Shown here one piece after another: positions 1 through 20,481 of a stretch of DNA of 32,678 nucleotides (positions are counted from its first letter, which is position 1; each line of letters begins with the position of its first letter). The notes beneath the pieces are model-generated. The model saw only the letters and a program-made list of their open reading frames with translations, was not told the DNA's origin and ran no database searches. This stretch comes from a virus, in IMG/VR virus record IMGVR_UViG_3300009154_000160, positions 1 through 32,678 of that record; one strand, given 5' to 3'. The translations under genes were made by a program, and so were the position numbers.

Positions 1-882
1 ACTGGTGACAGTTTGCCTAGTGGACTGCTTTCGTCGGCTCAATCGACTACAAACGTGATTGGAACGACTACGCAGTATTCATCCAATCTAAGCCTTAATA
101 GCACAGCAGCTTTAAGCGTTGGAATGACAATCTCAGGACAGGGAATACCAGTTAATACGACGATTACAGCGATTGTAGACGCATACAACGTGACAATGAG
201 TAGCGCGGCAAATCTTACTGCCGTAAATTCTACTTACAGCTTCTCGTTCTACTATTACGTTGGATTCAATGGCGGATATGTTCAGCCAGCTAATCACAAC
301 ACCTTTAATGTCTACAATTCCTACAACAACGCTGTTGCCGGAACATCTACTGGCCTTGTTTCAATCTATTCTACTGGAGACGCCGTCCTAAGTAGTTTCT
401 TTGTTGATTCAATACTGCCTCCTACGCTTGTTAAGAGCATTCTGCACATTGAGAAGCCTGTAACTGTAGGATATGTCAGCTTGTATGCCTATGATTATGG
501 TCGCAGCAACGATATGGCACTTGTGGGTCAATATCACCCTTCTGAGACAAACCCTAAGTATCGCCGAATCAGGATCGGAAAGCCATGTGCATGGGTCAGG
601 ATCATCTATAGGATGGCACACCCAAACATCACTAGCGTATACGATTATATCCCAGTAGAGAACACTCGCGCAATTATGGCGGCAGTTCACGCTGTGGATC
701 TGGAGGATAAGGACTTCGAGGAGCAGAGCAATAAATATTGGGCAAAAGCACTCGCATATCTTCGCAACCAGCACGAAAGCATGACAGGACACGCTATGGA
801 GCCAATCCAAGTCAACGGATTGACCTACGGCGATATGACAGATCCTGTAATCGATTCTATCTACGGCGATATTGTTGGATAA
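1..882 (+). CDS. Putative phage neck/tail structural protein (5' end missing)
   Basis: The reading frame is open from base 1, so the true start lies to the left; about 293 residues are visible. The first part is Ser/Thr/Asn-rich and beta-like, with a short motif GMTISGQGIPVNTTITAI of a kind that recurs in phage structural proteins. The last third is different, charged and probably helical (around VENTRAIMAAVHAVDLEDKD), as in adaptor or tail-tubular proteins. It lies directly upstream of the nozzle-like gene, and the two overlap by one base (TAATG), so they are likely made together. A T7 gp11-like role is inferred from order and size; no diagnostic motif is visible. It could also be another head-tail connector or a tail protein. 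Confidence 0.6.
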   Translation, partial: TGDSLPSGLLSSAQSTTNVIGTTTQYSSNLSLNSTAALSVGMTISGQGIPVNTTITAIVDAYNVTMSSAANLTAVNSTYSFSFYYYVGFNGGYVQPANHNTFNVYNSYNNAVAGTSTGLVSIYSTGDAVLSSFFVDSILPPTLVKSILHIEKPVTVGYVSLYAYDYGRSNDMALVGQYHPSETNPKYRRIRIGKPCAWVRIIYRMAHPNITSVYDYIPVENTRAIMAAVHAVDLEDKDFEEQSNKYWAKALAYLRNQHESMTGHAMEPIQVNGLTYGDMTDPVIDSIYGDIVG

Positions 883-3020
883 TGAAAAGCCCCAATATCA
901 CTTCTGGCAGGCAAACTAAGTCTACGGCAGCGTGGATTCATGGAGTAAACTCGGTTCGCAACCCTTGGACGCTCCCAGAGGATCAATTCAAGTGGGGGGT
1001 GAACGTAAACTGCCGTGGAGGACTAGTCCAAACACGCAATGGGTTCAAGATGCGTCTTTCTTTGCCTAAAGGTAACTTTCAAGGAGGAATTATCTTTAAT
1101 GCAAATAAGCAGTATCAGAATTCCAGCACGGTCACCAATCTTTCTGGCGTTACTATTAGCAATGAGGCATCTGTGTTTGATGTGAACGGAAACCCTGTTG
1201 TGGCATCGGACATTCCATACGCAATGTTCTGCGTTGACGGGAAAGTTTATTATTCTCCATTTCCTTTGACTCAACCTGATAATTGGGACTCTTACTTACT
1301 TTCAAACATTCAGCTTGACCCAAACATCAAAAAGGTAAATTTCGTCATTGGGACTCAGAATGCAACTATTGACAACAATACCAATAGCACGGTTGTTCCA
1401 TCTCATAGAATCGTAATTATCCAAGATGGAATTAATCCGGCTGGATACTGGGATGGATCAGATAGGACAGGTCAGGTATCAGCCGATATGCCAATTGGTT
1501 ACTGGATGGCATTTTCTGGAAATAGGCTTTGGGTAGCAACAGGAAACATCATTGCAGCATCTGACTTAGCTAATCCGCTGGGATGGGCTGAACGAAATCA
1601 AGGTGCTGGGCGAGGAGACTTCAGTGTTGCAAGGCCAGTTACTGGAATGCGTGATTATGTAGGCCAAAACAACGATACAAAGCTGTATGTGTTTACCAAC
1701 CAATCAACATATTCACTTTCAAGCGGCGTTCTTGATCGCGCACAATGGCCTAATACTCCTAATTTCCAAGCTACTCTTTACCCTACAATTGGATGCGTTG
1801 CAGGTGACAGCATAGCGTTCCAAGCTGGCATGATGTGGTGGTATTCACAAGGAGGATTAGTCAGTGTTGACGTTGCAACCGCTTCATACCTATCTAGTCA
1901 GGTTTTATTCAAAGACATTGAGATGGCAAAGGCGAAACGCCTCATGGCATCAGATGTCAGCGGTATTTGCGCCGTTTCATTTGAGAACTATTTGCTTTAT
2001 TCAATCCCATACTTAGAGCCTACAAACAGCGTAACAATGGTTTTGGATTACGCATCTGCATCGGAGTGGAATCAGTCAAAGTCGCCTGCATGGAACGGTG
2101 TGTGGACAGGAATACGCCCCGTTGTGTGGTCAAGTAACGTCATTGATAGTCAGACTCGCGTATTTGCATTTTCGGTTGATTATGCCAGCACATCGGATGG
2201 ATCGTTTAACCATATCTGGGAGGCATTCATGCCAGAAAGATACGATACCTACCTTCAAATCAATCAAGGCGGAAGGACTGAGGAAAGAGTGAATAGGATT
2301 TACTGCCAAATGGAAACGGGTCTTCTAGGTGATGCGATGGACATGAAGCAGATGGTTTATGGCGAGCTTGATTGTTCACAGATAGCCGGAACGGTTGACG
2401 TTAAAGTGTCCTATAGGGGAACGAGGGGATCTTACTCAGACATACTCAATACTAGGCTTTTAGCAGCTACTGAAGGGTATCAATACGACACCAGCAACTA
2501 TTCCAAACAAATAGACCAACTGGGATTCTTGCAAACTCAATCACGCAGGCTTGTTACTGAAAATGTCTCTAGGTCAGGAGGGACATCTTGCGAATCAAAC
2601 TACACTTACGATGTGGACAAGGCATTTAGCTTCTTAACCGAATGGTGCGGAGCGATGGGGGTAGATTCGATACGAATGTTCTTAGATCCGTGGCCTGATA
2701 TTTCAGTTGGAAAGCCAAGCTATAACGAAACGCAATATTGCGTTGTTGCAGAGGATGGATCTAGTGAGTTGATTGACCTTAATCTTGCGCCAGTAGAAAA
2801 AGCTGCTACTGCATTAAATTCATGGTCTAGCACGCAGACTAGAACAGTCACATATCGCTGCTGCAATCCGGCTGTATCGGTTACGGCAACGGCATCATAC
2901 GTCAGTTACACATCCCTGCAAGACGCACAGACTCAGGCTGGAAATTTGGCTGCACAAGAGGCCCAAAACTCTATTAATAATTACAAAGTCGCAAACAACT
3001 GTCCCCCATGCCCTGCATAA
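882..3020 (+). CDS. Tail nozzle-like protein (T7 gp12/TTPB-like, putative)
   Basis: This is a 712-residue protein. I chose the ATG at 882 because it overlaps the previous stop (TAATG) and starts MKSPNITSGRQTKS; the frame is open further upstream but that part lies inside the preceding gene. It is rich in short beta-strand stretches with repeated W/Y-G patterns, for example GNRLWVATGNIIAASD and KLYVFTNQSTYSLSSG, as expected of the beta-propeller tail nozzle proteins of podoviruses. The C-terminus (about 660-712) turns Ala/Gln-rich with paired Cys (CCNP, CPPCPA) and may be a separate tip. The next gene overlaps by 13 bases. Size (T7 gp12 is about 794 aa) and order fit a nozzle. The assignment is inference from layout and composition, not from a catalytic signature. 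Confidence 0.6.
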   Translation: MKSPNITSGRQTKSTAAWIHGVNSVRNPWTLPEDQFKWGVNVNCRGGLVQTRNGFKMRLSLPKGNFQGGIIFNANKQYQNSSTVTNLSGVTISNEASVFDVNGNPVVASDIPYAMFCVDGKVYYSPFPLTQPDNWDSYLLSNIQLDPNIKKVNFVIGTQNATIDNNTNSTVVPSHRIVIIQDGINPAGYWDGSDRTGQVSADMPIGYWMAFSGNRLWVATGNIIAASDLANPLGWAERNQGAGRGDFSVARPVTGMRDYVGQNNDTKLYVFTNQSTYSLSSGVLDRAQWPNTPNFQATLYPTIGCVAGDSIAFQAGMMWWYSQGGLVSVDVATASYLSSQVLFKDIEMAKAKRLMASDVSGICAVSFENYLLYSIPYLEPTNSVTMVLDYASASEWNQSKSPAWNGVWTGIRPVVWSSNVIDSQTRVFAFSVDYASTSDGSFNHIWEAFMPERYDTYLQINQGGRTEERVNRIYCQMETGLLGDAMDMKQMVYGELDCSQIAGTVDVKVSYRGTRGSYSDILNTRLLAATEGYQYDTSNYSKQIDQLGFLQTQSRRLVTENVSRSGGTSCESNYTYDVDKAFSFLTEWCGAMGVDSIRMFLDPWPDISVGKPSYNETQYCVVAEDGSSELIDLNLAPVEKAATALNSWSSTQTRTVTYRCCNPAVSVTATASYVSYTSLQDAQTQAGNLAAQEAQNSINNYKVANNCPPCPA

Positions 3021-3862
3021 TTACAGCCAGCGAGCCAATCAGCTCCTTTCCTAATCTGTACATCAGCCCATATGGAAACGATGGGATTATTCCTTTATAT
3101 TCAAGTATTCCAATTGCTTATGAAACAGCAGGAGAGTGCCTTCCTTGTGTATTGTGTGGAAACTCCCCTACTCGCCACCAGATCATCTCTAATGAGAGTG
3201 GAATAGGTGTAGGATGTGGAGGCGGAGGCGGAGGCGAAATTATTACTATAATACCATCGCCAATAATCGTTGGGACTATATTTACAGGAGCAATTAGTCA
3301 AGATTGGTATAACATAGCAAATTGGACAAACAATGATGGAGTACTGGCGACTATATTACCGAATGAAAACACTAGTGTAATAATAAATGCTACATTCACA
3401 TTCGCATCTCCAGAACCGATAGTTAAAAATGCTATTTTTAACTCTTCAAACAGTAGTAATTTAACTGTTACTCAATTTGCTACTTTTACTCAAAATAACT
3501 CACACAATGGAACCATAACTGGAAATTGTATTTTTAATAATTCCTCATATTGTTTTGGGACTGTCGTAGGTACTGCAGTATTTAATGGTACTTCTAGAAA
3601 TGGTGCTCAAAACAAGGTAATTACTGGGTATGCAACTTTTAATGACTACTCATTAAATGATACCAGAGGAGTTTGTTTATCTGGGGCTAAATTTACTGGG
3701 CATTCACGAAATACTTATCTTGTATATGGCGATACTATTTTTCAAGACAACTCATCCAATGAGGGTAATATACAAGATGGTAATGTTACTGTATTCTCTC
3801 CAGTTGAAAATCCTTTGGGTGGATATGTCATAAATGGATCTATAACTTACGTGGGCTATTAA
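3008..3862 (+). CDS. Putative tail fibre/spike with beta-solenoid repeats
   Basis: This 284-residue protein has three parts. Residues 1-33 form a compact N-terminal segment (MPCIITASEPISSFPNLYIS then PYGND) that is matched by the separate 27-residue ORF just downstream. Residues 74-79 are a run of six glycines, probably a hinge. From about residue 125 to the end there are roughly eight repeats of 18-24 residues with the pattern x-G-x-A-x-F-x-x-x-S-x-N, for example VVGTAVFNGTSRNGAQ and ITGYATFNDYSLND, typical of right-handed beta-solenoids. The repeat DNA is visibly richer in A and T than the neighbouring tail genes, as expected of an exchangeable receptor-binding module. It overlaps the nozzle gene by 13 bases. 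A host-recognition role is inference; no enzymatic motif is seen. Confidence 0.6.
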   Translation: MPCIITASEPISSFPNLYISPYGNDGIIPLYSSIPIAYETAGECLPCVLCGNSPTRHQIISNESGIGVGCGGGGGGEIITIIPSPIIVGTIFTGAISQDWYNIANWTNNDGVLATILPNENTSVIINATFTFASPEPIVKNAIFNSSNSSNLTVTQFATFTQNNSHNGTITGNCIFNNSSYCFGTVVGTAVFNGTSRNGAQNKVITGYATFNDYSLNDTRGVCLSGAKFTGHSRNTYLVYGDTIFQDNSSNEGNIQDGNVTVFSPVENPLGGYVINGSITYVGY

Positions 3863-3863
3863 A

Positions 3864-3947
3864 ATGCCATCCATCCAAACAGCTTTGATCTCGGTGACCT
3901 CATTTCCGAATGAGTACGCGTCTCCGTTTGGGAACGACTACCTATAA
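3864..3947 (+). CDS. 27-aa ORF copying the fibre N-terminus
   Basis: ATG at 3864 follows the fibre stop by one base and ends in TAA at 3945-3947. The product aligns residue by residue with the fibre N-terminus: MP-x-I-x-TA at the start, then SFPN-x-Y-x-SP-[F/Y]-GND, and then it stops. The match is at protein level while the DNA has diverged, which argues for selection and against recent junk. It may be a free-standing virion-anchor peptide, or the remnant of a second fibre whose receptor module was lost. It overlaps a possible early start (3910) of the next gene in another frame. Confidence 0.5.
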   Translation: MPSIQTALISVTSFPNEYASPFGNDYL

Positions 3948-3951
3948 ATTT

Positions 3952-4338
3952 ATGAAGTCCCAAGTAACCTACAAATTAGTCCCACACGGCACTCAAGAGT
4001 TCCAGCAACTCCAAACCTTTGCCGAATCGTTCGACCACAAAATTGTTCCACATCCGCAGATAAATGTTTACGCACACTATCGAGATGATATTTGCTTTGG
4101 ATACAGCGATCATGTGTTTGTTCCTACTATTTATCCAGCTTTTCATCCGGCATTAACTAGGCCAAGGGACGTTATTCAAGTTATGAACGACTGGAGAACA
4201 CACACACAGCTTTCTGGAAAAGTTAGCTATATTGGTGTTCCAATTGAAACTGACACTCACAGAATGAACTTCCCAGAGGACACAATGAATAAGTTAGGAC
4301 TTGTCAGATTGAAAAGAGAGATCTACTCTCCAGCTTAA
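3952..4338 (+). CDS. Unknown protein in tail module
   Basis: This is a 128-residue protein of unknown function. The frame could start at ATG 3910, but that lies inside the 27-aa ORF; ATG 3952, four bases after that ORF's stop and preceded by an A/T-rich stretch, fits the spacing seen elsewhere here. The protein is rich in His, Pro and aromatic residues (HKIVPHPQINVYAHYRDD; TIYPAFHPALTRPRDV) and has no cysteine-pair metal motif or membrane segment. I do not recognise the family. Being between the fibre and the internal virion genes suggests a structural or assembly job, but nothing in the sequence proves it. Confidence 0.6.
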   Translation: MKSQVTYKLVPHGTQEFQQLQTFAESFDHKIVPHPQINVYAHYRDDICFGYSDHVFVPTIYPAFHPALTRPRDVIQVMNDWRTHTQLSGKVSYIGVPIETDTHRMNFPEDTMNKLGLVRLKREIYSPA

Positions 4339-4340
4339 TT

Positions 4341-4712
4341 ATGGGCGGCTCAAATCCACAACCTTCTCAGTATATTCCTAAGCCAAATGATGATCTGGCT
4401 ATTGCACAGATGTCTAATCAATCACAGTTAGGTCAGAATGCATTAGCTAACCAAGCTGAAATGCTTAAACTCACTTCTGCAATTCCTCAAACTGCATATA
4501 CTCCTAATGTATATGGGCCTACTGGTCAATTAGTTCAGGCAAACAAAGTAGCTGCAATTAATGCGGCAAATAGCAAAAAACTAGAGGAAACTCAGAATCC
4601 TTACGCAGCACAGGCTAGGGAGGGACTTCAAAAGATGGCAGCTCAAGACGTTTCTCCAAGCTATTGGCAGAATACAATGAGCCAATACGGAAAGCAAACT
4701 GGACTTGTTTAA
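4341..4712 (+). CDS. Met-Gly-Gly virion-associated protein A (putative)
   Basis: This 123-residue protein starts MGGSNPQPSQYIPKP and is rich in Gln, Asn and Ala. The start is two bases after the previous stop, with no Shine-Dalgarno. Its last 21 residues (DVSPSYWQN... to QTGLV) closely match residues 5-24 of the next protein (DSAPSYWQN...), so the pair looks like a tandem partial duplication or one gene split in two. It shares the MGG start with three other proteins in this cluster (at 6417, 6812 and 7335). Its place suggests a T7 gp14-like internal virion protein, but that is inference. Confidence 0.55.
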   Translation: MGGSNPQPSQYIPKPNDDLAIAQMSNQSQLGQNALANQAEMLKLTSAIPQTAYTPNVYGPTGQLVQANKVAAINAANSKKLEETQNPYAAQAREGLQKMAAQDVSPSYWQNTMSQYGKQTGLV

Positions 4713-4716
4713 TAGT

Positions 4717-5247
4717 ATGGCTAACGAAGATTCCGCTCCTAGCTACTGGCAGAACCAGCTTAATAACTGGACAAAGACTAAAGGTCTTGAGAACTACCTT
4801 GGTTCCGGCTTGCAAGACAGCACAGTTGGACGCAGTGGTTTTTTTGATCAGGCAACGGCACAGGGGCAAGCTCTTCGTGAGGCTGGGGCAAGGCAGGCAC
4901 AAGGAATCATCGGTCAAGCCCCAGTAGTAGGCATTAATCCGTCTTCTGGAGCAGAACAGCTTCAGGGAGCCAGCGCACAGCAGGCAAAGCAAGGAGTTGC
5001 AGGAATCAATGCAGCAGTTCAAGGAGGACAAGGCCAAGCTCAATCAACTCAGGATTGGATTAATCAAATGATGGGATCTCAATCGCAAGCAGTAAACGCA
5101 CACAACCAAAACTGGCAGAATTATCAACAAGCCATGTACACAGGAGCAGTTAATAACGCTGCATCACAGAATGCTCAACAAGGTCAAATGTACCAAACGG
5201 GCGGTGCGGTTGCTGGAGCTGCGCTTGGAGCAGCAGTAATCATTTAA
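4717..5247 (+). CDS. Putative internal virion protein with hydrophobic C-terminus
   Basis: This is a 176-residue protein. I start it at ATG 4717 (MANEDSAPSYWQN), four bases after the previous stop, rather than at 4705 inside that gene. The middle is Gln/Ala/Gly-rich and low in charge, and the last 17 residues (GGAVAGAALGAAVII) form a Gly/Ala hydrophobic stretch that could enter a membrane. Small phage ejection proteins such as T7 gp14 share this size, composition and location. The PSYWQN segment repeats the end of the preceding protein. The stop overlaps the next start (TAATG). Confidence 0.55.
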   Translation: MANEDSAPSYWQNQLNNWTKTKGLENYLGSGLQDSTVGRSGFFDQATAQGQALREAGARQAQGIIGQAPVVGINPSSGAEQLQGASAQQAKQGVAGINAAVQGGQGQAQSTQDWINQMMGSQSQAVNAHNQNWQNYQQAMYTGAVNNAASQNAQQGQMYQTGGAVAGAALGAAVII

Positions 5248-6092
5248 TGAAAAACACATACACACAAACATTAATCACTCAAACAAAAGAAAAAGCAAAA
5301 CAATGGATAAATAGGTGGCCTAAATCGGCCGTCTTGTGGAGTGGAGGAAAAGACTCTACTGCATTGCTTCATTTTCTTAAATTTGAATGTGATATTGACC
5401 TCCCAGTAATTCAATTTAGGGAACCTTTGTTTCGTGAGCGTTATTCGTATAGCGACAAGCTAATAAAAGATTGGGATCTTGAAATGTATGAGTACCCGCC
5501 GTCAAAGGTAGCATTAGCTGATGGGCCTGATGCGAATACAGGTGAGATGCGCTTTGATCTATTGAAATATCAGCAATGGGGAGAAAGAAGCGTTGTTTTA
5601 TCTCTTGGAACAGAACGTCCTATTGGTGATGAAAAGTACCTTTGCGGAATAGATTTCCTAGGCCGTCCTACAGGCAGTTTTAATTGGCCTTGGCAGGGTG
5701 TATTCATCGGGACTAAGCAGTGCGATACCGATCTTATTAAGGGTCACGTTCCCATGTCTCAAGACATCAGATATGCGGAAGGATCTCCAATTAGTTTGTA
5801 TTTGATGCGTGATTGGGACGACGATCAAATATTTTCATGGCTTGTAGATAACGGAGTATGCCCAGATATGGACAGGTATGAATGCATTGATGGGAAATGG
5901 GGTCACAAAACTGACAAAAGCAAAAATGCAGACTATATCCCTACTTGTCTTAACTGTATTGACAGACACCAAGCTGGCAAACCAGCATACTGCCCAAAGC
6001 TAAAGGCAACCATTAGCAATATGTCTCATATGGCTCCTTATGAGGACGTTGTTTTTGAAGATCTTGGATTTAGGCCAATCTGGAACAAATAA
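5247..6092 (+). CDS. PP-loop PAPS-reductase-like (adenine nucleotide alpha-hydrolase) enzyme
   Basis: This 281-residue protein carries the classic PP-loop SGGKDST at residues 32-38, after a 30-residue helical lead-in, so it belongs to the PAPS reductase/ATP-pyrophosphatase superfamily. Family members bind an adenine nucleotide and act in sulfur or amide transfer. A Cys cluster (C205, C213, C234, C237, C249; CLNC...YC) near the C-terminus could bind Zn or an Fe-S cluster, as in some sulfur-handling relatives. It starts by TAATG overlap with a virion gene and ends by overlap with the YkgJ-type gene, so the two look co-translated. Such genes are known in many phages and their substrates are mostly unknown. 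DNA sulfur modification or nucleotide/tRNA modification are possibilities; no dnd-type partners are visible. Confidence 0.85.
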   Translation: MKNTYTQTLITQTKEKAKQWINRWPKSAVLWSGGKDSTALLHFLKFECDIDLPVIQFREPLFRERYSYSDKLIKDWDLEMYEYPPSKVALADGPDANTGEMRFDLLKYQQWGERSVVLSLGTERPIGDEKYLCGIDFLGRPTGSFNWPWQGVFIGTKQCDTDLIKGHVPMSQDIRYAEGSPISLYLMRDWDDDQIFSWLVDNGVCPDMDRYECIDGKWGHKTDKSKNADYIPTCLNCIDRHQAGKPAYCPKLKATISNMSHMAPYEDVVFEDLGFRPIWNK

Positions 6093-6373
6093 TGTACGAT
6101 TGCCAATCTTGTGGTGCTTGTTGCTCTCACAGGTGGTCATGGCCTTTACTTAAAAAAGATAGGTCAGACGCTAAGAATATACCAAAGGAGCTTGTTCGTG
6201 AAGATTACCCATTAATGAAAACTATAAATAATAGGTGCGTTGCATTAAGTGGGGAAATAGGGTGCAATGTTTCGTGCAACATATACAACGACAGGCCATC
6301 AGCTTGCCAAAAGTTTGAATCTGGATCTGATCTCTGTAAAGAGGCTAGAGCAAACGCTGGTTTAAAAGTATAA
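6092..6373 (+). CDS. YkgJ-family cysteine-cluster protein
   Basis: This 93-residue protein has nine cysteines in the YkgJ/UPF0153 pattern: CxxCxxCC at residues 4-11, then RCVAL around 48-52, C58, C62 in SCNIYNDRPSAC, C72 and C82. The family is thought to bind Zn or an Fe-S cluster, and its reaction is not established. Its ATG overlaps the stop of the PP-loop enzyme, which suggests a two-gene functional unit placed inside the virion operon. A 43-base gap follows before the next gene; I see no clear promoter or terminator in it. Confidence 0.85.
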   Translation: MYDCQSCGACCSHRWSWPLLKKDRSDAKNIPKELVREDYPLMKTINNRCVALSGEIGCNVSCNIYNDRPSACQKFESGSDLCKEARANAGLKV

Positions 6374-6416
6374 TTAATATTGATCTATACTTAGAAACCT
6401 ATTAGTTTTCCAAGTT

Positions 6417-6800
6417 ATGGGAGGAGCCAATCCAAACGATCAAATTACTGCAACACATCTTGATTTCAACAAAGGTGATGGGAATGGCATTCCTGTAGCA
6501 TCAGTAGATAAGAAATGGGATGTTCAAAGCGCACATCCAGAAGCCGTGACACAAGGAATAATTAAAGGAATTGGTTCATTAGCTACATCGGCTATTGGTG
6601 CTGGTGCAGGAGCAGCTGCAAAAGGTGCTGGTGACGCAACAACAGCATCACAGGCAACTGGAAATGTTGGCCCTGTAGCATCTAGCACACCTTCACCACA
6701 AGGATTTACAGATGCAGTTCAATATATGCGCCGTCCATCTATGCAAAACTACATGGATATGAACGCCCCAGAAAAATTCTCATTCAACTACAACCAATAA
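6417..6800 (+). CDS. Met-Gly-Gly virion-associated protein B (putative)
   Basis: This 127-residue protein starts MGGANPNDQI. Residues 34-52 (W-x-V-x-SAHPE-x-V followed by a G/I-rich stretch) match residues 47-66 of the 664-aa protein encoded at 7838, indicating a shared interaction segment. Residues 50-72 are a Gly/Ala hydrophobic stretch (ATSAIGAGAGAAAKG) that may be membrane-active. The C-terminus is aromatic/Met-rich (QYMRRPSMQNYMDMN). It is probably an internal or ejected virion protein; I do not recognise a named family. Confidence 0.55.
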   Translation: MGGANPNDQITATHLDFNKGDGNGIPVASVDKKWDVQSAHPEAVTQGIIKGIGSLATSAIGAGAGAAAKGAGDATTASQATGNVGPVASSTPSPQGFTDAVQYMRRPSMQNYMDMNAPEKFSFNYNQ

Positions 6801-6811
6801 CCAATACTACT

Positions 6812-7333
6812 ATGGGTGGATCAGGAGGAGGAGGGCAACCAGCCCCAGCACCAGTACAAGACAACAGCGCAATGCTTGCTTTCTTGTCTCAACAACAGGC
6901 GCAACAAGCGGCGGCACAAGCAGCCGCTCTTAAAGCTCAACAACAGGCAGTCTACAACGCTTCAGTTCAATCTGCCACTACAGCAGGTCAACAAGGCGCA
7001 CAGCAGGCCCAACAACAGCTAGGATTGCAAAACCAATACCAGCAGGCTCAAGATGCGGCTGCGTTGCAGGCTCAGAATGCTGCGTCTCAAGGCCAAGGTG
7101 CTTCAGCAGCAGGCGGGGGATTTGATCTTGCGGCGGCACAAAAGAACCAGATGTCAAATCTAGGAGCAGGAGCTGGATACCTTTCACCTACGGCAGCTAA
7201 TCTTTCATACTCTCCAAAAACAATGAATCCAGCGGCTACCACAGCAGCAGCTCAGACACCATTAGCTAATGCTGGAGTTACTGGTCAGAACCAAATAGGT
7301 AAATCCGCAACAACTACGCTAGGGGGACATTAA
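6812..7333 (+). CDS. Ala/Gln-rich Met-Gly-Gly protein C (tandem paralogue 1)
   Basis: This 173-residue protein is of very low complexity: a Gly-rich start (MGGSGGGGQPAPAP), then VQDNSAMLAFLSQQQAQQ and long Ala/Gln helices to about residue 90, then a Gly/Ala/Ser-rich second half. The next gene repeats the same plan and keeps the PDNSAML or QDNSAML block, so the two are tandem paralogues. There is no Cys, no membrane segment and no catalytic motif. Helical Ala/Gln-rich proteins at this place in podovirus genomes are often internal core or ejection proteins; that role is inference. ORFs in other frames here are artefacts of the repetitive GCA/CAA codons. Confidence 0.55.
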   Translation: MGGSGGGGQPAPAPVQDNSAMLAFLSQQQAQQAAAQAAALKAQQQAVYNASVQSATTAGQQGAQQAQQQLGLQNQYQQAQDAAALQAQNAASQGQGASAAGGGFDLAAAQKNQMSNLGAGAGYLSPTAANLSYSPKTMNPAATTAAAQTPLANAGVTGQNQIGKSATTTLGGH

Positions 7334-7334
7334 T

Positions 7335-7832
7335 ATGGGAGGTCATGGAGGAGGGCAATCATACCAAGCACCAGCACAAGCACCAGATAACAGTGCAATG
7401 CTTGCCCAACAACAGGCTGCTGCCAAGGCTGCGGCTGATGCGGCTGCGGCTGCTGCTTTGCAAAAGCAACAACAGGCTGAGTACCAAACAAGGCTTACTG
7501 GCGCACAAGAAATTGGGAAAGTCGGATCTCAACAGGCTCAAGCACAGCTCGCAAGCACTGGACAAGCTCAACAGGCTGAACAAACACCAATTGCACAGGC
7601 GGCAACGCAGGCCGGAGGATCTGGATTTAGCTTGGCTGGATCGAAGCAGGCAGCACTAGGCGCAGTAGGAGGGGGAGGCGGAACTTCGATTGCCCCTATT
7701 AATGCGGCTGCTCAAACAGCAAATACAGGTGCTGGAGGACAAGCTGCTAAGGTTGCAAATATGAACCAGACCAATAACGCAACTCAATTTACGGTTCCAC
7801 AAACAGACGGCATTAAATTCGGCGGCTCCTAA
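7335..7832 (+). CDS. Ala/Gln-rich Met-Gly-Gly protein D (tandem paralogue 2)
   Basis: This 165-residue protein begins one base after the previous stop. It repeats the neighbour's layout: MGGHGGGQ, a Pro/Ala linker, PDNSAMLAQQQAAAKAAADA, a long Ala/Gln helix, then a Gly-rich half containing five consecutive glycines (AVGGGGGTS). The C-terminus ends QTDGIKFGGS. The protein sequences diverge strongly outside the head block, so the duplication is old. It probably belongs to the virion core set with its paralogue. No family recognised. Confidence 0.55.
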   Translation: MGGHGGGQSYQAPAQAPDNSAMLAQQQAAAKAAADAAAAAALQKQQQAEYQTRLTGAQEIGKVGSQQAQAQLASTGQAQQAEQTPIAQAATQAGGSGFSLAGSKQAALGAVGGGGGTSIAPINAAAQTANTGAGGQAAKVANMNQTNNATQFTVPQTDGIKFGGS

Positions 7833-7837
7833 AAATT

Positions 7838-9832
7838 ATGGCACTAGAAACGCAAGGTTATCAATTTCAGGCTCCAATTCCTGATCTATCGCGAGAGCAT
7901 CCACTCACTTCGTTGAGAAGTTTGTCGTTTTCTGGTGGAACAAATAACCCTGTCAACATTCAGCCGCTTGCCGGATGGAAAGTAGAGTCAGCACATCCTG
8001 AGCAAGTAGCTATTGGAGCGATTCAGGGAGCTGGTGCAATTGGTCAAGGAATCACGGCTGCATACATGAGTAAGCAGGCCAAGAAAGAGGAGGCTGATAA
8101 ATTGAAGAAAGCACAAGATCGCGAGGATTCATTGCTTACTACTAAATTTGGCAGGGATAAGGTATTGGCAGGCATGAAAAGCGCGGAATCTGAAGCAAGA
8201 CTTCAAGAAGTCATCCGTCATAACCAAGAAGTGGAAGAGCTTAAAAGGCGCATTGAAGAAACGGGAGGGAATAAAGGAAAAGGCGCACTTGCCAAAAGAA
8301 GTATTTTTGGTGATCAATCTCAAACATCACAAAATACTGATCAACAGGCGACTGATCAACAAGCGACTGAAACTCCTCCAGACGCAACAAAAAAACCGAC
8401 ATTTTTTGGAACTTCTCCACAAACTGAGTACATGAAAAAGGGTTCTAATGTCACGCCAGACGGAGTGCCTCTTACCATGACAGAAGAGCAGACAAATATT
8501 CTTGCTGGACTCACTCCTGACATATCACAGCCATCGAATCAACGTATGCTTACTGCTGATCTTTCTGGATCAACTCCGTACACAGGATTAACCGATCAAG
8601 CAGCTTCTAATATATTTGCTAATTACAACGCATCATCTGACCCGTTTGGGTTTGCAAAATCAGCTCCATTGCAAAATCTTCAAGCATTAAGTGAAGATGA
8701 AGTTAAGCAACACTTTTTAGCTGGTGAGACTGCAACACAAAAACAATTTGGTCAGCTTCCATCACAGAATTTAACGCCATCACAAATTGCTAATTCAGCA
8801 TTGAAGAGGTCTTATGGATTTGATGGAATTTACCCAGAAGACCAAGCAAGGGCTTTTATTGAATACGCACAAGCTAATAACCTTGCAATTCCACACGTTG
8901 CACAAAAAGCTGATGGAATAGAAGTAAAATTCCCTCAAGGAGCAACGCCATTGCAATCTGCAAAGCAAAAGAACTTTGACAGCCTTCTTTCTATGCGTGC
9001 AGTAAAGACGCTTCAAAGTGAGCCAAAGCAATTTGAGTCAGAAAATAACGTAAAGAATTACACGGGACAGCGTGGACTCATGCAGATGCTTGTTCGTCTA
9101 TCTCCAACATACGAGTCTGCCATGAAAGACCCAAACCATAATGCAATACCTGCTGCTGGTATGGCACAGCTTATGGCTCAAGCTGAAACGGGAGGGGTTC
9201 CAACCGTTAGTGCGGTTTCAGAATACCTTCATAGCCAAGGGTACACTGACACACTTGAGCAAATGAAAGCTAAATACTTAGCCGGAGCAAAAGAATTGCT
9301 TACTCCACGCCAAACAACTCAAATTTATGAACTTCTTCTTGAAGAGGCAAAAGCACAAGCATCACTTGCAAACCAGACAGTTGCTTCTTGGCAAGACACA
9401 TATAGGGGGAGGGGTGTAAAAAACCCAGAAAAGTATATCGCTCCATATATTCTACCAAAAACCAAAGATGATGCCACAAAGGAAGTAAGTGACATGATAC
9501 CTGAAATAGCAAGGGCAAAGCAGGAGCGAGATAGGGCTGAAAAGTCAAAGGACATGAAGTCATTTGCAGATGCAGATTTTGAGTGGCGTGAACTGAGCAA
9601 AAAAGCACATAGTTTACAGGAAAAAATTGAAACATCTACTGGTCATATAATTAATAGGCATGAGATTGAAAATTCTCGTCAGGGATTTTTATCTCCAGTT
9701 CCAGTTAATGAGCTTGATCCAGAGGCGTTCCAGATGTTGAAATCAGGAGAGATGGGAAATCTTAACCTAATGGAACAACAATTTTACATGGGCGGAAATA
9801 CATCCAATTCAACAGATGACTCAGAAAAATAA
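7838..9832 (+). CDS. Putative internal virion protein (T7 gp15-like position)
   Basis: This is a 664-residue protein of unknown fold. Residues 47-66 carry the W-x-V-x-SAHPE-x-V block shared with the protein at 6417. Residues 78-150 are strongly charged and likely coiled coil (KKEEADKLKKAQDRED; EEVEELKRRIEE-like). Then comes a Gln/Thr-rich linker (about 155-190) and a mostly helical C-terminal half with Gln-, Lys- and Glu-rich segments. It starts five bases after the previous stop with no Shine-Dalgarno (leader CTAAAAATT). It is followed six bases later by the giant polyvalent gene, the same order as gp15-gp16 in T7-like phages. The ejection-core role is inference from order and helical content. 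Confidence 0.55.
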   Translation: MALETQGYQFQAPIPDLSREHPLTSLRSLSFSGGTNNPVNIQPLAGWKVESAHPEQVAIGAIQGAGAIGQGITAAYMSKQAKKEEADKLKKAQDREDSLLTTKFGRDKVLAGMKSAESEARLQEVIRHNQEVEELKRRIEETGGNKGKGALAKRSIFGDQSQTSQNTDQQATDQQATETPPDATKKPTFFGTSPQTEYMKKGSNVTPDGVPLTMTEEQTNILAGLTPDISQPSNQRMLTADLSGSTPYTGLTDQAASNIFANYNASSDPFGFAKSAPLQNLQALSEDEVKQHFLAGETATQKQFGQLPSQNLTPSQIANSALKRSYGFDGIYPEDQARAFIEYAQANNLAIPHVAQKADGIEVKFPQGATPLQSAKQKNFDSLLSMRAVKTLQSEPKQFESENNVKNYTGQRGLMQMLVRLSPTYESAMKDPNHNAIPAAGMAQLMAQAETGGVPTVSAVSEYLHSQGYTDTLEQMKAKYLAGAKELLTPRQTTQIYELLLEEAKAQASLANQTVASWQDTYRGRGVKNPEKYIAPYILPKTKDDATKEVSDMIPEIARAKQERDRAEKSKDMKSFADADFEWRELSKKAHSLQEKIETSTGHIINRHEIENSRQGFLSPVPVNELDPEAFQMLKSGEMGNLNLMEQQFYMGGNTSNSTDDSEK

Positions 9833-9838
9833 ATCTTC

Positions 9839-12800
9839 ATGGCTGACAGCAATGACCCTCAATCTTTAGAGAGCAGGCTAAATGCCGTAGCAGCCCCGAA
9901 GGATCAGCCTCAAGTTGATGTAATCAAACAAAAACTGAACGAAGTAGCTGCACCTGCAAATGAAAATCATTTGTCGGAAAGGCTAAATGCCGTTGCTGCC
10001 CCTGTGGATAAGGCTGCTCAAGAGCAAATATCTAATGATCAGATTCAATCAGCAGCATTTGGAGTTGGAGGCAGTATTGCGCTTCCATATATTCACGAAT
10101 CATTACAAAAGAATGGGCCTAAAAATGTAACAGAAGAGCAAAGGTCAGCAATTGCATCAATCAATCCAGAGCAAAGGCATGGTCTATTAAAGCAACATCC
10201 TTGGGTCTACAACAGCATGACCCCACAGCAGCAAGATGAAGATTTTGAATTTTCTAGGAAAGCGCAGCCATTCACGATGAAAGACGCTGGTGAGGCGGCT
10301 AGTGGGTTAGGTAATTTCTTCAAGGACATGGTAAGCAAGGGTGCTGAAGTTTCATGGGATGTTGTTGCGGCTAATCTAACAGAGCCATTAAAAGCAAGAA
10401 TTGAGAACATTCCACATAACGACAGGGTTAAGTTGGCAGAAGAAAAACTTGCGAGAGATTCAGTAAATTTGGGAGGTTCTATTCCGTCTGGTATTATTGA
10501 TACCACACGCACTATACAACGCTTGTTTGGTGGCGAAGATCTTAATGCACTTGTTAACCCAATACAGCGTGCAATTCAGCAAGCTGCCCCAGTAATAGGA
10601 CAACAATTAGGAATACCTATTGGAGTTACCCAGAACATTGTAGGAGTTCCACAGCAGCAACAGATTAATCCTTGGTCAGCAGTTCCTTCTACTGGATATG
10701 CGCCTTTTGATTTAGTAACAAGATTGGCTGAAGCGTCATATAGTAAAGACGCTGGCAGTTTTGCAGCTTTGGATAGGTTCAATGAGGCGGCAGGACTTCA
10801 GGACAAAGATCAATCAAAGACGCACGACCACATCAGAAAAGTGTACAATGCTATTGAGGGAGAAAAAGACTGGAATGCATCAGTCGGTCAAAACCAAGTA
10901 TCTCCTTGGGCAAAGATGGCATTCTCTGATGCTGGTCATCAGGCTATTTTGTTTAGGGAGAAATCAATGCTTCCTAGCGCACAATTTATTGCAGACCACG
11001 ATGGAATCAGCTTGCAGGAAGCAGACGCAAAGCGAGACAGGCTGGCTGAAGAAAATGCTACCAAGGCAACCATCCAACTGGCGAGCGAGTGGAATAAAAA
11101 CTACGATCCAGCAATGGAAATGTTCGGAGGTCTTCTTTTGGGAGACGCAGGAATGGGAGAGGCCGGACTTGCTATGGGCGCACTGAAAGAAAGCGGAAGC
11201 CTAATGAAAGTCGCACAGACGCTTGGTAAGACTGACCGAGAAGTTTCTGCATACTACACGGCATTGCAAAAATCTCGCAAAGCAAGAGATCTTGAGATGC
11301 AGGCAAAGGCTTCTCGTATGCCTTGGTGGGGTAAGGCCGCTGGTGGAGTTGAGCAAGTTCAAAAAAACATATCAGCCGCTGGTCAGGGAGTGTTTGAAAA
11401 TCTTCCTCCTTGGGGAAAGACTGTTGCACCGCTTGCATCAAAGGTCGCGGCAAAAGTAGGTCTTGGAGGTCTTGGAGGTGGTGTTGGCGCATTGCTTGAT
11501 CCAGAAAATCCAACCAAAGGTCTATTGGAGGGAGTTACGTTCGCAACGGCACTAGGGATTGCTCCATCAGTCATTAGGTCTATTGGAGAGGCCAAGAAAA
11601 CAATTGGAGCAGGAGAGGGTAAATTATTTACTGAGGTTGCCAAAAGCCCAACATCATCTCTTCCTGCAAGAGTTATCTTCAACAAGGCAACTGGCCCAAC
11701 AATTGACTATTTGATAGAGAACGGAACTACTTTAGCTAAGGCAGGAGTCAATCTTGGTGCGCTGTCTGCTGTCACATCAACTTTGAATTCTGATGACCCA
11801 GAGGACTTCAATAAGGCAGTAGCCGAAGGAATTGGAATGGGAGTTGGTTTCCATTTATTGCATGGAGCAGCCGGACAGATTCACGGAAAAGATCCAGCTC
11901 AGGAGCTAAAAAACCGCAAAAAGCGTGATGCAGAAATAAATATTGCCGTCAGCAAGGCAAGCCCAGCAACTCAAGGAGTTCTTGAGCAAGTCACAAATTA
12001 TCAGACCGCAATCGACAGGGTTGATCACTTGGTAGGAAAGAGCCAAAACAATTTAGCAAGGGCAATACAAGGAGGAGACAAGAAAGCTATAGATGAGGCT
12101 TCCAAAGCATTGAAGAATGCACAAGCAATCCAGAAAGAGGTTCTTAGGGCAAACGTCCAAACAAGAAACGAGTATGGAAGGTCGTTCCTGTCTACATACG
12201 CCGACATGAACAGGCTTGCTAATGGATCTCGTAGCGTTGGACAGCCAAACGTGAGCATAGAGATCTTAACTCCAGATCAGATTGCAGACCTTCATGTCAG
12301 TGAGAATTCTAGGGTTGGAATGACACCAGAAGAGATCGCTGCTGTTAGGGCGCAGGGAGAGGCAGATGCACAGGCTCGCGGATTCTTTGATAAGTCTAAG
12401 AATAGGGCAGTAATTAACGCCGCACACATTTTGGCTAGGACAACCCTATTTGGAGAATCGCCATCGGACGCTCTTAGGCACGAAACATCTCATGCTCTTG
12501 AGCAGATCCCAGAATTTAAGAAATTTAACGAAAAAACCGACAATCTGCTATTTACCAATACTGAAAGAGATTTGCAGGGCAATATACTCAAGCAAACAGA
12601 TGGAATCTACGACGACAACGCATTGGTTGAGATGTACATCAAGAAATATCTTGGGAGTACGCCGGATAGCAAAAAGATTGAGTTCTCCAGCAGGCTTGGA
12701 TTGTGGAATCCAGAAACCAATAGTCTAAATATCCCAGAGGTTGTCAAATATATGAAGAGCGAGGTAACGGCTGAATTGACATCTGGAAACCTTCGTTCTG

Positions 12801-15800
12801 GACTTGGAAAGTTAATGGGTGCTGAAGCCGGAGTTGCGAACTGGATCGCAATGCGTCAAAAGCAGGGGTTCTTAGGTAAAGCAATAAACGCCGTAACTGG
12901 CCTTGGCGCAAAGCCGTTTGGTTCTGAGCTTCTTGGTATTGAATACACCCCAGAAGTCATTGCAGCCAATCGTGAGGCTATTAAAGCACTAGCTGAGTTC
13001 AATGGCAGGTTTGAGCTTAACCCAGAGGGACAATTGGGTCGCGAGATGACCGAAAAGGAGATCAGGACAAACCCAGTTCTTAGGAAAAGGTATGGGCTGA
13101 CTGGGGGAGAATTCCAGACGCAACTTCAAGGAGTTATTCGTGATGAGAATGGAAAGATAGTTGGAAAACCTGTAGTTATCACCAACCCAAACGCTTCAGA
13201 GGGCAATTGGAAATATGACGATCAAGGAAATAGAAAGCAGGTAAAGGGATACGGACAAGTTCCAGATGAATTCCAAGGAGTTCCTATTCCAGCAGGAGGA
13301 TCGCTAGAAGTATACCGCGACTTCAAATATGAGCCAGACGGAAAGACTCCGATCCGCACAAGTAACAAGGATTTAAACCAACTTGAGGCAGATCGCGGAG
13401 ATCTAATCCGCAAAGCTCTTACAGAGGCTGCTTACGACGACTCCACAAGCCGCCTGACTCCGTTTTCTGCTGATGGGCTGTCATGGGACGGCATCATGTC
13501 AAAATCGCAGATACAGGCAATTAAAGACATTCCTGAGTCCATTCTCCCACTTTCTATTAAAGAAAAGATATTAGCATTTAATGATGCAATGGCTCGCGGG
13601 GAAGGAAGCACGTTCGACATAGATTATGCACCTCGTAGCGGAAGAGGTAAGGCGTACAAGGGGCGCAAATCAAACATATATCACATGATACCAATCGGCT
13701 TTGGGTTCTCTAAGGCTGGCAACTTTTATTTACGCACTCTTTCACTTAATGCTGCCTTCAGGAAGCTCAACGCTAGAGCGAAGTTGATGAAGGGTTGGCT
13801 TGACCCTTGGGATGGAGATAAGAATTTATTCATGAAAGAGCTTCAAGACACATACTTGAAGAACACTTATGAAAAGCGCGATGGATGGATCGGACTTGAT
13901 CCTAATCATCCAGCCGAGAAAACCCCATTGGCGGAAGTCAAGTTTGGAAGGTTTTTGGACTTCATGAACATGATCGGGTCTGACACTCCCATCAATCCAC
14001 AGCGTTCTGTAACTCCGGCAGATCCATCTGCTAGGAAATCAAAGAGGTCTAATCTGTCGGCAGAAGAGGACAACGCAGGGATCGATAATTTATGGCGCAG
14101 CCACAGGCTTGACGCTATAGCCGACATTGCAGATACAACGGAGCAGACGGGCGCATATAAGATGGATCTAAACAGGGTTTACAAGGCTCTCATGCCAAAG
14201 CCAGAGGAAGGCGAGGAAGCCATAAAGCCTCTAACTTTTGCACCAAAGGGAGAGCGGCCTGCTCTAACGCCGGAGATTCTTAAAGGAATTACGGCTACGC
14301 ACATTGCCCCAAAGAAAGAAAACGGCATATCCTTCATGCCATCCGACGAAAAATATCCCACCAGCGAGCGTGGATTCTACTCAGGCTTGCAAAAGACCAT
14401 CGATGAGAAGATGCCAGCAAAGGCATCGCCACAGCAGATTCTGTCCATCGTCAACAACCCGCAGAACGCCAAACCTGAAGAGGTCAAGTGGAGTAACCTT
14501 GCAGGATTTGTGGAAGGCAAAACCAGCGTCACCAAGCAAGAGGTTCTAGACTACTTACGCAACGAGGGATCGGTGAAGTTTGAGGAGGTAAGTCTAAAAA
14601 AAGGTGGAGGACAGGATCTAAAAATACAAATTCAAGAAAATCTTGATGCGCAAAGAAAGTATTTTGAAGATGCTTTTGCTAAATATGGTGTAAGTAACAT
14701 AAGAGATTTACCAAATGAAGTAAGGTTTAGTGATGAAAGAAAACGATTAGAAGAAGAGGGGCAAAGACTTTCTGTTGAAAGAACTAATCAATCTGGAAGA
14801 ATTATACAGGAACCAAAATACTCCCAATATGTCCTTCCTAATGGCGAGAACTACAGGGAGGTCGTGCTGACGATGCCTGTTGAGCAAAAGCCAATACCAA
14901 CAACAGACATTAATGTTATCTCTCAAGAAATGTATGGAAGAAAGTATTCTGAACTTTCTCCAGAAGAAGGCGATAAAGTTTGGTCAGAATATAAAAACAG
15001 ATCAGTAGTTAAGGATGCACAAGTAAATCCTTATGCTTATCGTTCCTCCCATTTCCCAGACATCCCCAACTATGTTGCCCACATGAGAGTTGATGAGCGT
15101 CCTGATGCTGAAGGCAATGATGGCTTGTTCATCGAAGAGATCCAGTCTGATAGGCATCAGCAGGGTAGGGAGAAGGGGTATAGGGGAAACAAAGATGAAG
15201 AAATTGCAGCAAACCTAGCCAAGCAAAAGGAAAATGTTGCCAAAATGGAAGTTTTGGAAAAGCAACTTACTGAAAAATATGGAGAGGATAGGAATGCTTG
15301 GGATAAATCCGTATATCCTCGTGATGAATTGTGGCATGAGTGGAAAAAACTCCATGAGATAAATAAGTTGCTTGCTTCAGAAAAAGCAAATCTAGTTGAT
15401 GGATTAATCCCAGACGCACCATTCCGCAAAGACTGGCCTGTCCAGATGTTCAAACGAGCGTTGCGTGATGCAGTCGAAAGCGGCAAGGAGTGGATTGGAT
15501 GGACGGGTGGTGAGACGCAGGCAGAACGCTATGACTTGAGTAAGCAGGTTTCATCACTTCATTACGACGAGAAAGACAACTCGCTTATCGCTTATGGCAT
15601 GGATGGAGAGCAGGTGATCGGGAAAACCGTCCAAACCTCTGAATTGCCAGACATGATTGGCAAAGATGCCGCCCAAAAATTACTAAGCCAAGCCCCCAAC
15701 GGTGACGGTGAAAAGATACTTTCGGGTCAAGACCTAAAAGTAGGCGGAGAAGGCATGAAAGGCTTCTACGATAACATCCTTCCTAAAGAGATTGGCAAGT

Positions 15801-18079: not shown

Positions 18080-18080
18080 C

Positions 18081-18284
18081 ATGGATATATTAATCACAGA
18101 TAAAGAAAAAGGGCCAGAGGGATGGGAAATGATTCCCGTTGACGATGTAAATGTCTTCTACAATCCCAAAACCATTGACGAGGCAAAGATTACTGAAATG
18201 GTTGAAAATTTTGCCAATGGTGACACCGAGGAAATGGATGAAAATGCGACTTTTGATACTGCGCTAGACCGAGAGGAATTTTAA
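18081..18284 (+). CDS. Small acidic protein of unknown function
   Basis: This 67-residue protein is very acidic (MDILITDKEKGPEGWEMIPV at the start, then many Asp/Glu to the end). It starts two bases after the polyvalent protein's stop, so it is probably co-transcribed with the virion genes. No Cys, no membrane segment and no recognised family. It may be a small chaperone-like or accessory partner of the giant protein, but only its position hints at that. Confidence 0.55.
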   Translation: MDILITDKEKGPEGWEMIPVDDVNVFYNPKTIDEAKITEMVENFANGDTEEMDENATFDTALDREEF

Positions 18285-18296
18285 CAACCAACTATT

Positions 18297-18434
18297 ATGC
18301 CCCTGCGAGCCTGCTCATCCCAAAACTGCTTTAACCGAAACGTATCTACCGAAGTAAAGGCAGGAAAACCAATCAAACAGGCCGTAGCAATCGCATATAG
18401 CGTGAAGCGCAAGGCGAAAGCTAAAGGAAAATAA
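18297..18434 (+). CDS. Tiny basic phage protein (AGKPxKQAVAIA family)
   Basis: This 45-residue ORF begins at ATG 18297, 12 bases after the previous stop, and ends at TAA 18432-18434, four bases before the next gene. The core EVKAGKPIKQAVAIAYSVKR is a pattern I recognise from many tiny phage proteins of unknown function, usually near virion or DNA-packaging genes. The C-terminus is a Lys/Arg/Ala tail (KRKAKAKGK), suggesting nucleic-acid contact. Two Cys (residues 6 and 11) are present. That the pattern recurs in phages supports it as a real gene despite its size. Confidence 0.6.
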   Translation: MPLRACSSQNCFNRNVSTEVKAGKPIKQAVAIAYSVKRKAKAKGK

Positions 18435-18437
18435 TTT

Positions 18438-19742
18438 ATGGCACAACCAACCCCACGCAAAGAAGACCTGAAGCCTATTAGCGAGGCTGTATGTATGTTT
18501 ATTGATCATGGCTTGTTTATCTCGCAAGCATTGAGACTCGCTCAAGACTTCAAGAAGGTCTATGTTTATACTCCTTGGGAGACGGCGTTCCCTCGCCTAA
18601 CTTCACAGGTTGGGCTTGGATATGATGAGTTACAGCTTGTTGATAGCATCTTTGGCCCTTGGTTTGATTCTATTGATGTTTTTGTTTTTCCCGACATCAA
18701 CTCAGGCCATCTTCAGCAGTATCTAGTAGATCAAGGAAAGGCTGTTTGGGGATGCCGACTTGGTGAGTGTCTTGAGCTTGAGCGTGAAGGAATGAAAGAG
18801 ATCCTAAAGGCTCTTGATCTTCCCGTTGGAAAGTTCACACACATCAAAGGAATGGAAAATTTGCGTGTATTTTTGCAAGAGCATGATGGGCAAAAGCATT
18901 GGGTAAAAACTAATAAGTGGCGCGGAACATTTGAGACATTTTCTTGCGAGCATTACAAAGATGTTGAACCGAAACTTGATTCTGTAGAACACCATCTTGG
19001 GCCACTCAAACACGTTATTGAGTTTACTGTTGAAGAAGATCTCCCTGATAAAGTTGAAGTAGGTACAGATGGATTTGTTATTGATGGAAAACAGCCTTCG
19101 CAACTTATGGCTGGAATTGAGGTGAAGGACTTATGTTACGTTGGGAAATTCCTTAAATACAATGACTTGCCAGAACCTGTGCGTCGATTCAACGACCGCA
19201 TGGAGCCTGTATTTGCTGCCTATGGTTATCGCGGATGGATGTCATCCGAAGTTAGGATTGGGAAAGACCATATCGGCCACATGATCGATGGATGCATGAG
19301 ATCGCCTAGCCCTCCAAATGAGCTATGGCAGCTTGTCTATGCTAATTTCTCCGAGATCATCTACTACGGAGCGCATGGCATCATGGTTGATCCCGAACCT
19401 ACCGCAAAGTATGGAGCCGAAGTGCTTATTCATAGCTCATGGGCGAGCGGAAACTGGCAACCCGTGAACATTGAGCCTGAAGTACGCGAGTTTGTTAAGC
19501 TACGCAATTCAATGAAGATCAACGGGCGCGAATACATCTCTCCAATGGGAGACGGCCTGCCTGAGATCGGAGCCGTTGTGGGGCTTTCTGACGAGTCTAT
19601 TGAGGACGCTATTGAAGAAGCATTCAAGAATGCAGAGGGAGTAAGCGGATACTATCTGGACATCCCGAAAGCATCTACAGAAACAGCTCTTGAGCAGATT
19701 GCCAAGTTGGAAGAGTTGGGCTTGAACTACTTCAAAGACTAG
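18438..19742 (+). CDS. ATP-grasp-like ligase (putative)
   Basis: This is a 434-residue protein. Its layout resembles ATP-grasp carboxylate-amine ligases such as PurD: an N-terminal Rossmann-like part (FKKVYVYTPWETAFPR; DVFVFPDINSGHLQQYL), a central WGCRLGECLELEREGMKEIL segment like the entry helix of these enzymes, a VKTNKWRGTFETF strand-turn with Lys where ATP-grasp enzymes hold the nucleotide, and SSEVRIGKDHIGHMIDGCMR with IDGCMRSPSPPNE in the place of the metal-binding ExN-x-R strand. The likely activity is ATP-dependent ligation of a carboxylate, substrate unknown. It lies between virion genes and the HNH gene with no partner enzyme nearby. The family call is by eye and moderate. Confidence 0.5.
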   Translation: MAQPTPRKEDLKPISEAVCMFIDHGLFISQALRLAQDFKKVYVYTPWETAFPRLTSQVGLGYDELQLVDSIFGPWFDSIDVFVFPDINSGHLQQYLVDQGKAVWGCRLGECLELEREGMKEILKALDLPVGKFTHIKGMENLRVFLQEHDGQKHWVKTNKWRGTFETFSCEHYKDVEPKLDSVEHHLGPLKHVIEFTVEEDLPDKVEVGTDGFVIDGKQPSQLMAGIEVKDLCYVGKFLKYNDLPEPVRRFNDRMEPVFAAYGYRGWMSSEVRIGKDHIGHMIDGCMRSPSPPNELWQLVYANFSEIIYYGAHGIMVDPEPTAKYGAEVLIHSSWASGNWQPVNIEPEVREFVKLRNSMKINGREYISPMGDGLPEIGAVVGLSDESIEDAIEEAFKNAEGVSGYYLDIPKASTETALEQIAKLEELGLNYFKD

Positions 19743-19759
19743 CCATAATTTTTTCATCT

Positions 19760-20425
19760 ATGGATGAATTAAGGAAACTCAAGCGAGGAACCGTTAGAGA
19801 TGACGGCCTTGTGTTTTTGCGTTATCGCAAAAGCTGTAAAAATGGCGAATATTGGATTACTCCAGATAAATTTATAGAATACAATAATCGTCAAAAAGAA
19901 AGCGGAGATGCGTGGAGAAAAAGGAATCCAGAAAAAAGCAAAGAATGTTGTAGAGCATCGTATCAAAAGAATAGACAGAAAAAGCTAGATTATCACAGAA
20001 ATAGAAGGGCAAAGAATCCAGAGATATATCAGGCTAGGCAAAATGCATATCGACAAGCGAATCGTGAAGCAGAGCGAGCAAGGGCAAACGCTAGAAGAAA
20101 AAAAGATCCAGAGAAATATAGGAAGAGAATAAGGGAATATCACAAAACCCATCCTGAAAAAAGATGTGCATTAGAAGCAAAACGAAGGGCTAAAACAGAA
20201 GGAACTCTTTGCAATCTCAACAAAGAACAAAAGAAAATTATAGAATGCTTGTATAAATGCCGAAAAAGGGTTTCAGAATGTACTGGTATAGAGCATCATG
20301 TAGATCATATTATCCCGCTTTCAAGGGGAGGATTGCATACCCCAGAAAACCTTCAAGTGATACTTGCCTCAATAAACATGAGCAAGTCCGACAAACTCCC
20401 TCATGAATTTTCCATTGCCGCATGA
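19760..20425 (+). CDS. HNH endonuclease (homing-type, free-standing)
   Basis: This is a 221-residue protein. Residues 45-145 are a long Lys/Arg-rich stretch with repeating N-P-E-x-Y/K-P-E units (RRAKNPEIYQARQ; RRKKDPEKYRKR), probably a DNA-contacting helical arm. The C-terminal nuclease core shows H180, D182-H183 (HHVDHIIPLSRGG), N197 and N206-x-x-K209, the HNH beta-beta-alpha-metal signature. The gene is more A/T-rich than its neighbours, as expected of a mobile homing endonuclease. Its TGA overlaps the ATG of a 19-aa ORF. It could nick an allele lacking the gene and spread to related phages; no intron or intein edge is visible. Confidence 0.85.
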   Translation: MDELRKLKRGTVRDDGLVFLRYRKSCKNGEYWITPDKFIEYNNRQKESGDAWRKRNPEKSKECCRASYQKNRQKKLDYHRNRRAKNPEIYQARQNAYRQANREAERARANARRKKDPEKYRKRIREYHKTHPEKRCALEAKRRAKTEGTLCNLNKEQKKIIECLYKCRKRVSECTGIEHHVDHIIPLSRGGLHTPENLQVILASINMSKSDKLPHEFSIAA

Positions 20426-20481
20426 GCATCCGCCACATCCTCGCCGTGACGATGACATCCCTCCCCACAAATGAGAATTGA
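20422..20481 (+). CDS. 19-aa bridging ORF between HNH and the next gene
   Basis: ATG 20422 overlaps the HNH stop (ATGA). The frame encodes MSIRHILAVTMTSLPTNEN and ends at TGA 20479-20481, overlapping the start of the next gene at 20471. It may only serve to carry ribosomes across by stop-restart, or it may be the cut-off start of a gene disturbed by HNH insertion. Weak as a real protein. Confidence 0.25.
   Translation: MSIRHILAVTMTSLPTNEN

Follow-up and report, generated by a model that had tools for sequence, protein, structure and literature searches.

A 27-codon open reading frame behind a phage fibre gene as a probable remnant of a second fibre gene

Why should a very short open reading frame (ORF), resembling the start of the fibre gene directly in front of it, stand on its own in a phage genome? 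The question is raised by a locus in IMG/VR virus record IMGVR_UViG_3300009154_000160, of which positions 1 to 32,678, the whole stretch of DNA analysed here, are called the window. The ORF, at 3864-3947 and hereafter termed the stub, encodes MPSIQTALISVTSFPNEYASPFGNDYL; its ATG lies 1 nt past the stop of the fibre gene that begins at 3008, and its TAA lies 4 nt ahead of the next ATG. We consider the stub, with a probability of about 0.86, to be the 5' remnant of a second fibre (receptor-binding protein, RBP) gene after an internal deletion, brought into this lineage by transfer of a DNA tract, because its nearest match is the second of two tandem fibre genes in a related contig, full second fibres occupy this place in relatives, no 27-aa copy was found among 108 of them, and the surrounding tract is imported.

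The resemblance between the stub and the fibre is real, since over the first 25 residues the two share 15 amino acids with 43 of 75 nucleotides identical, and since none of 200,000 residue shuffles of the stub reached the actual 14 matches (initial Met excluded; maximum 10). The shared N-terminal motif and the conservation of the protein over divergent DNA, both of which had been proposed in a sequence-only reading of the locus, were thus confirmed. When the fibre was used as a query on the window record, the stub was recovered at E 2.4e-4, and an anchor profile, i.e., a profile of the conserved fibre N-terminus built from relatives, matched it at E 1.1e-9 over model positions 1-25 only. Chance similarity was ruled out by the shuffles and these two matches, and no family was assigned to the stub by Pfam and PHROGs scans. 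A sequencing frameshift splitting one long gene was also rejected, as homology passes from the anchor start to the gene that follows over only a few bases.

To place the stub among its relatives, two IMG/VR scans with the flanking genes and two with second-gene anchors were combined into loci L001-L131. Eighteen were set aside (16 second copies of the same contig, and L118 and L119, which are parts of the window itself), and 5 of the resulting 113 contigs carry no anchor on the stretch examined (L073, L103, L106, L111, L117), leaving 108 anchor-bearing contigs. In 90 of these, a single anchor-only protein (79-86 aa, 58 distinct sequences) fills the slot. Two tandem fibre genes are present in seven (L012-L015, L017, L018, L122), and the second gene, or gene 2, lies exactly at the stub site; the full second fibre that the sequence-only reading had suggested looking for therefore exists. 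These second genes encode 213-422 aa with differing C-terminal domains, Gly_rich_2 being found in L012 and L018. The remaining states are one long fibre on its own in L016 (L016:4967-6004), with an anchor of the gene-2 type joined to a legume-lectin domain (PF00139, E 6.7e-14), a locus cut by the contig end (L087), and a remote group of nine contigs with an anchor protein of 173-175 aa. In two members of the latter a long ORF comes next after the anchor gene, with 410 aa in L107 and 420 aa in L109; that of L107, a separate gene, matches Phage_tail_fib just over the cut-off. By their family assignment, the Gly_rich_2 and legume-lectin variable domains are what would be expected of receptor binders. 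A stand-alone 27-aa anchor copy was present in 0/108.

Among 43 anchors compared with the stub, a hand-picked set of distinct types, gene 2 of L012 rather than the fibre of the window is the closest in DNA (70/75 nt), and the top seven by DNA are all gene-2 anchors. The short ORF thus keeps the conserved N-terminus of a second RBP, with 23 of 25 residues of L012 gene 2. Blastn of the window against L012 follows the start of gene 2 to 3941 and resumes from 3946, in sequence adjoining the end of gene 2; since the matches jump from one end of the gene to the other, its body is absent at a point lying between about 3941 and 3946. The stub may end in gene 2's own stop codon.

The DNA around the stub is mosaic. 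Over the flanks, the closest relatives of the window are L001-L004 (~95% identity in the 712-aa protein encoded upstream of the fibre), which carry a single 81-aa anchor protein in the slot; the match to them ends at 3165 and restarts at 3990 (blastn). Within the gene that follows the stub, informative sites are of the L012 type before position 4072 (45/48) and of the L003 type after it (94/100). Correspondingly, the first 120 nt agree at 117 positions with L012 vs 74 with L003, and the 258 nt past 4072 agree at 251 with L003 vs 161 with L012, so that the switch falls between 4071 and 4080, inside this gene. The imported tract of ~0.9 kb extends from the variable domain of fibre 1 across the stub into the next gene, of which it includes the first 40 codons. 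The C-terminal domain of the fibre matches L014 gene 1 (34%, E 1e-16) and L013 gene 2 (29.5%, E 1e-8), with no other convincing match among the 17 proteins compared, and a two-fibre lineage is the probable donor of the tract. The stub has diverged from L012 at 5/75 positions and the 120 nt next to it at 3/120, which is not a significant difference (Fisher p 0.26). With full second fibres in 7/108 relatives and the stub inside a recombinant tract, the earlier suggestion that the site marks a fibre-swap point gains support. An ERF-family single-strand annealing recombinase is encoded at 26786-27421 (E 3e-25) and is a possible source of the mosaicism in the fibre slot.

On the reading of the stub as a gene-2 remnant, the ancestor or donor would have had two tandem fibre genes, each with the same ~61-residue anchor type and its own variable domain. 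A deletion starting at about codon 26 of gene 2 would then have removed all but the final few bases of the rest, so that the start, 25 codons, two more codons and the stop were left, and the ~0.9 kb tract would have replaced the corresponding DNA of an L001-L004-type phage with a single 81-aa anchor protein, presumably in this order. The gene 2 products are presumably fibres, and the stub product, if translated, would be expected to do nothing. Three parts of this account can be read from the sequences themselves: that the stub is homologous to gene 2, that the right edge is mosaic and that relatives lack the stub. Several observations weigh against it. An intact donor version of the exact second gene was not found among the contigs examined and the exact junction pattern had no match in viral_contigs, so that we infer the deletion rather than see it directly. 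Nor is the left edge of the import sharp, and the two-gene contigs (n=7) are a small sample for finding other stubs. Finally, in an alignment of anchors described below, all five strongly conserved columns that fall within the stub's 25 residues are kept, which would allow the stub a small retained role.

What such a role could be was considered in several forms. The best surviving one is compatible with the remnant reading and adds a reason for retention: the stub would be kept for ribosome hand-over, maintaining termination-reinitiation coupling, with the peptide itself irrelevant. In the late block (882-20471), Shine-Dalgarno-like motifs are nearly absent: a 4-mer of this kind occurs at -18..-4 in 1 of 18 starts vs 20% of random places (one start, 4718, set one base off), which suggests from sequence that the host initiates without Shine-Dalgarno sites. 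Gaps of ≤17 nt separate the genes at 16 of the 18 listed junctions, both stub junctions included; without the stub, the gap between the fibre and the 3952 gene would be 89 nt, and coupling by reinitiation is reported to be nearly abolished at about 20 nt between genes (PMC10666635). However, gaps of 43 and 45 nt in the same block indicate that some junctions do without coupling, a remnant of any kind would have the same appearance if it had a start and a stop of its own, and there is no relative with the stub (0/108) to show retention. We therefore treat ribosome hand-over as a tentative addition, less likely true than false. A stronger claim would be that selection maintains the stub as a translated hand-over micro-ORF, which holds late-operon coupling together after fibre-gene loss in a phage that has no Shine-Dalgarno sites; this appears quite improbable.

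It is likewise unlikely, if slightly less so than this stronger claim, that the stub has been kept as a site for docking or recombination through which a new second fibre could be gained. Such a role has been suggested for KP32 and KP34 viruses of Klebsiella (PMC6872550), very different domains do stand behind the same anchor in the two-gene relatives, and the window tract is itself recombinant. A future benefit is nevertheless no explanation for retention, and the right edge of the tract (4071-4080) lies inside the next gene, not in the stub.

A further possibility is that the 27-aa peptide is a functional mini-anchor filling the tail fibre sockets without a receptor domain. The sequence-only reading had offered binding of this kind as one possibility and had taken the ORF to stop right after the anchor; the latter is wrong, as the anchor of relatives extends to about residue 61 and the stub holds only 25 residues of it. 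Column conservation was counted over 107 anchors (69 distinct), with the nine remote-group contigs left out. Sixteen columns are conserved at ≥95%, five within residues 1-25 and 11 beyond; because these 11, including Cys44, Cys47 and Cys50, fall past its 25 residues, the stub ends inside the anchor domain, before residues 29-56. Retention of five of five conserved columns and the frequency of anchor-only proteins in the slot (90/108) speak for a mini-anchor, but those proteins have 79-86 aa and contain the whole anchor with its three conserved cysteines, which the stub lacks. Moreover, none of the 108 relatives keeps the stub as a separate ORF, an outcome that the earlier reading had itself named as telling against a virion-binding anchor. 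The stub also has a Ser8 to Leu change seen in none of the 43 other anchors, and this unique Leu8 would fit relaxed constraint. Between the stub and L012 gene 2 there are 2 replacement and 2 silent codons (non-synonymous rate dN 0.036, synonymous rate dS 0.19), numbers too small for a decision; differences between intact gene-2 anchors are, for example, 0 replacement and 10 silent codons (L013/L014) or 3 and 9 (L012/L013). Taken together, a mini-anchor is very unlikely. The adjacency of the genes and their 15/25 identical residues might point to an origin of the stub by recent tandem duplication, with the start of the window's fibre as the template, but this was ruled out by the DNA (43/75 vs own fibre, 70/75 vs L012 gene 2).

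The features of the locus are collected in Table 1. Its identification as a fibre slot follows from the variable domains of the second genes together with the tail- or nozzle-like model of the 712-aa protein, whose gene the fibre directly follows. That model is of low confidence (mean predicted local distance difference test score, pLDDT, 55), and its best PDB matches are podophage tail and nozzle chains, with many unrelated propeller proteins below them in the Foldseek list; its VIA-align rows are generic propeller proteins and a sign of a propeller fold only. On this basis, the 712-aa protein is the likely docking partner of the anchor, whose binding to the nozzle is predicted. It has no relative in genome_contigs; neither of the two flanking proteins has a match among 50,697 phage records, and no PDB sequence relatives were found for the two alignments. 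The AlphaFold model of the 284-aa fibre is poor (mean pLDDT 50), and Pfam and PHROGs returned no informative family for it, only three weak matches to PHROGs without known function (best E 0.04).

Table 1. Positions of the features at the fibre locus of the window.
Feature	Position	Strand	Basis
Upstream neighbour, 712 aa, probable podophage tail nozzle	882..3020	+	Foldseek top PDB 9nwi, 8zkm, 8vbx; weak PHROG match to internal virion protein
First fibre gene, 284 aa: anchor (about residues 1-61) and variable C-terminal domain	3008..3862	+	Anchor profile; C-terminal matches to L014 gene 1 and L013 gene 2
Imported tract, probably from a two-fibre lineage	3166..4071 (left edge about 3158-3173, right 4071-4080)	+	Blastn and informative sites
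27-codon ORF, probable 5' stub of second fibre gene (25 anchor codons, YL, stop)	3864..3947	+	70/75 nt and 23/25 aa vs start of L012 gene 2; blastn 3860-3941, 91.5% to L012
Approximate junction of the putative deletion	3939..3945	+	Gene-2 anchor homology stops 3938-3941; homology to gene-2 end/next gene starts 3943-3946; blastn limits and junction listing
Downstream neighbour, 128 aa, mosaic gene, right-hand landmark of slot	3952..4338	+	

What usually occupies the slot (e.g., L001:2524-2769) is the anchor-only protein, 79-86 aa long and with three invariant cysteines. It may be an adaptor or cap; the L001 protein has a single family match, a weak one to a PHROG without known function (E 0.33). 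As an experimental lead, the anchor-only protein is better than the 27-aa ORF. Among remote-group contigs, the nozzle gene is longer and reaches 1106 aa in the members read, L107-L109 and L112 (L107:6001-9321). Elsewhere in the window, a 2746-aa protein (9839-18079) has a weak ADP-ribosyltransferase (ART-PolyVal) match under the curated cut-off, and an Erv1/Alr-like thiol oxidase match at 20471-21166 is slightly under its own. The ORF at 5247-6092, among the tail genes, resembles by eye, from a motif, a PAPS-reductase-type protein and has no Pfam match at E 0.01.

The window fibre combines a conserved N-terminal anchor, matched by the profile over residues 1-61, with a C-terminal domain of a kind that differs among relatives (Gly_rich_2, legume lectin, others without a family), and from its sequence it is predicted to be a modular podophage RBP acting in tail and receptor binding. 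The T4gp10-like domain, the docking domain of the first RBP in the anchor-branch Klebsiella phages, was not reported for it by Pfam and PHROGs scans, with no profile-profile comparison run. Dual-RBP podophages such as KP32, G7C and K1-5 share with this group two fibre genes, a conserved N-terminus and interchangeable C-terminal domains (PMC6872550); both genes have the same anchor type here, whereas the second fibre of KP32 has only a short attachment peptide. The same study reports second fibres truncated to 69 aa in KpV767 (KP32viruses group C) and to 61 aa in KP-Rio/2015 (KP34viruses group C), read as loss of the second specificity, the truncated copies possibly being docking sites for new fibres (PMC6872550). 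Like these two phages, the window has what is probably a shortened second fibre beside a full first one; its sequences are unrelated to theirs, however, and with 27 aa its stub is the shorter one and is surrounded by a recombinant tract that can be seen. Truncated second fibres are thus already known in print from Klebsiella phages, and the stub is most likely another case in a different phage group: second-fibre gain and loss of the same kind, here in an uncultured group without relatives in the phage records searched, and caught together with its recombination edge.
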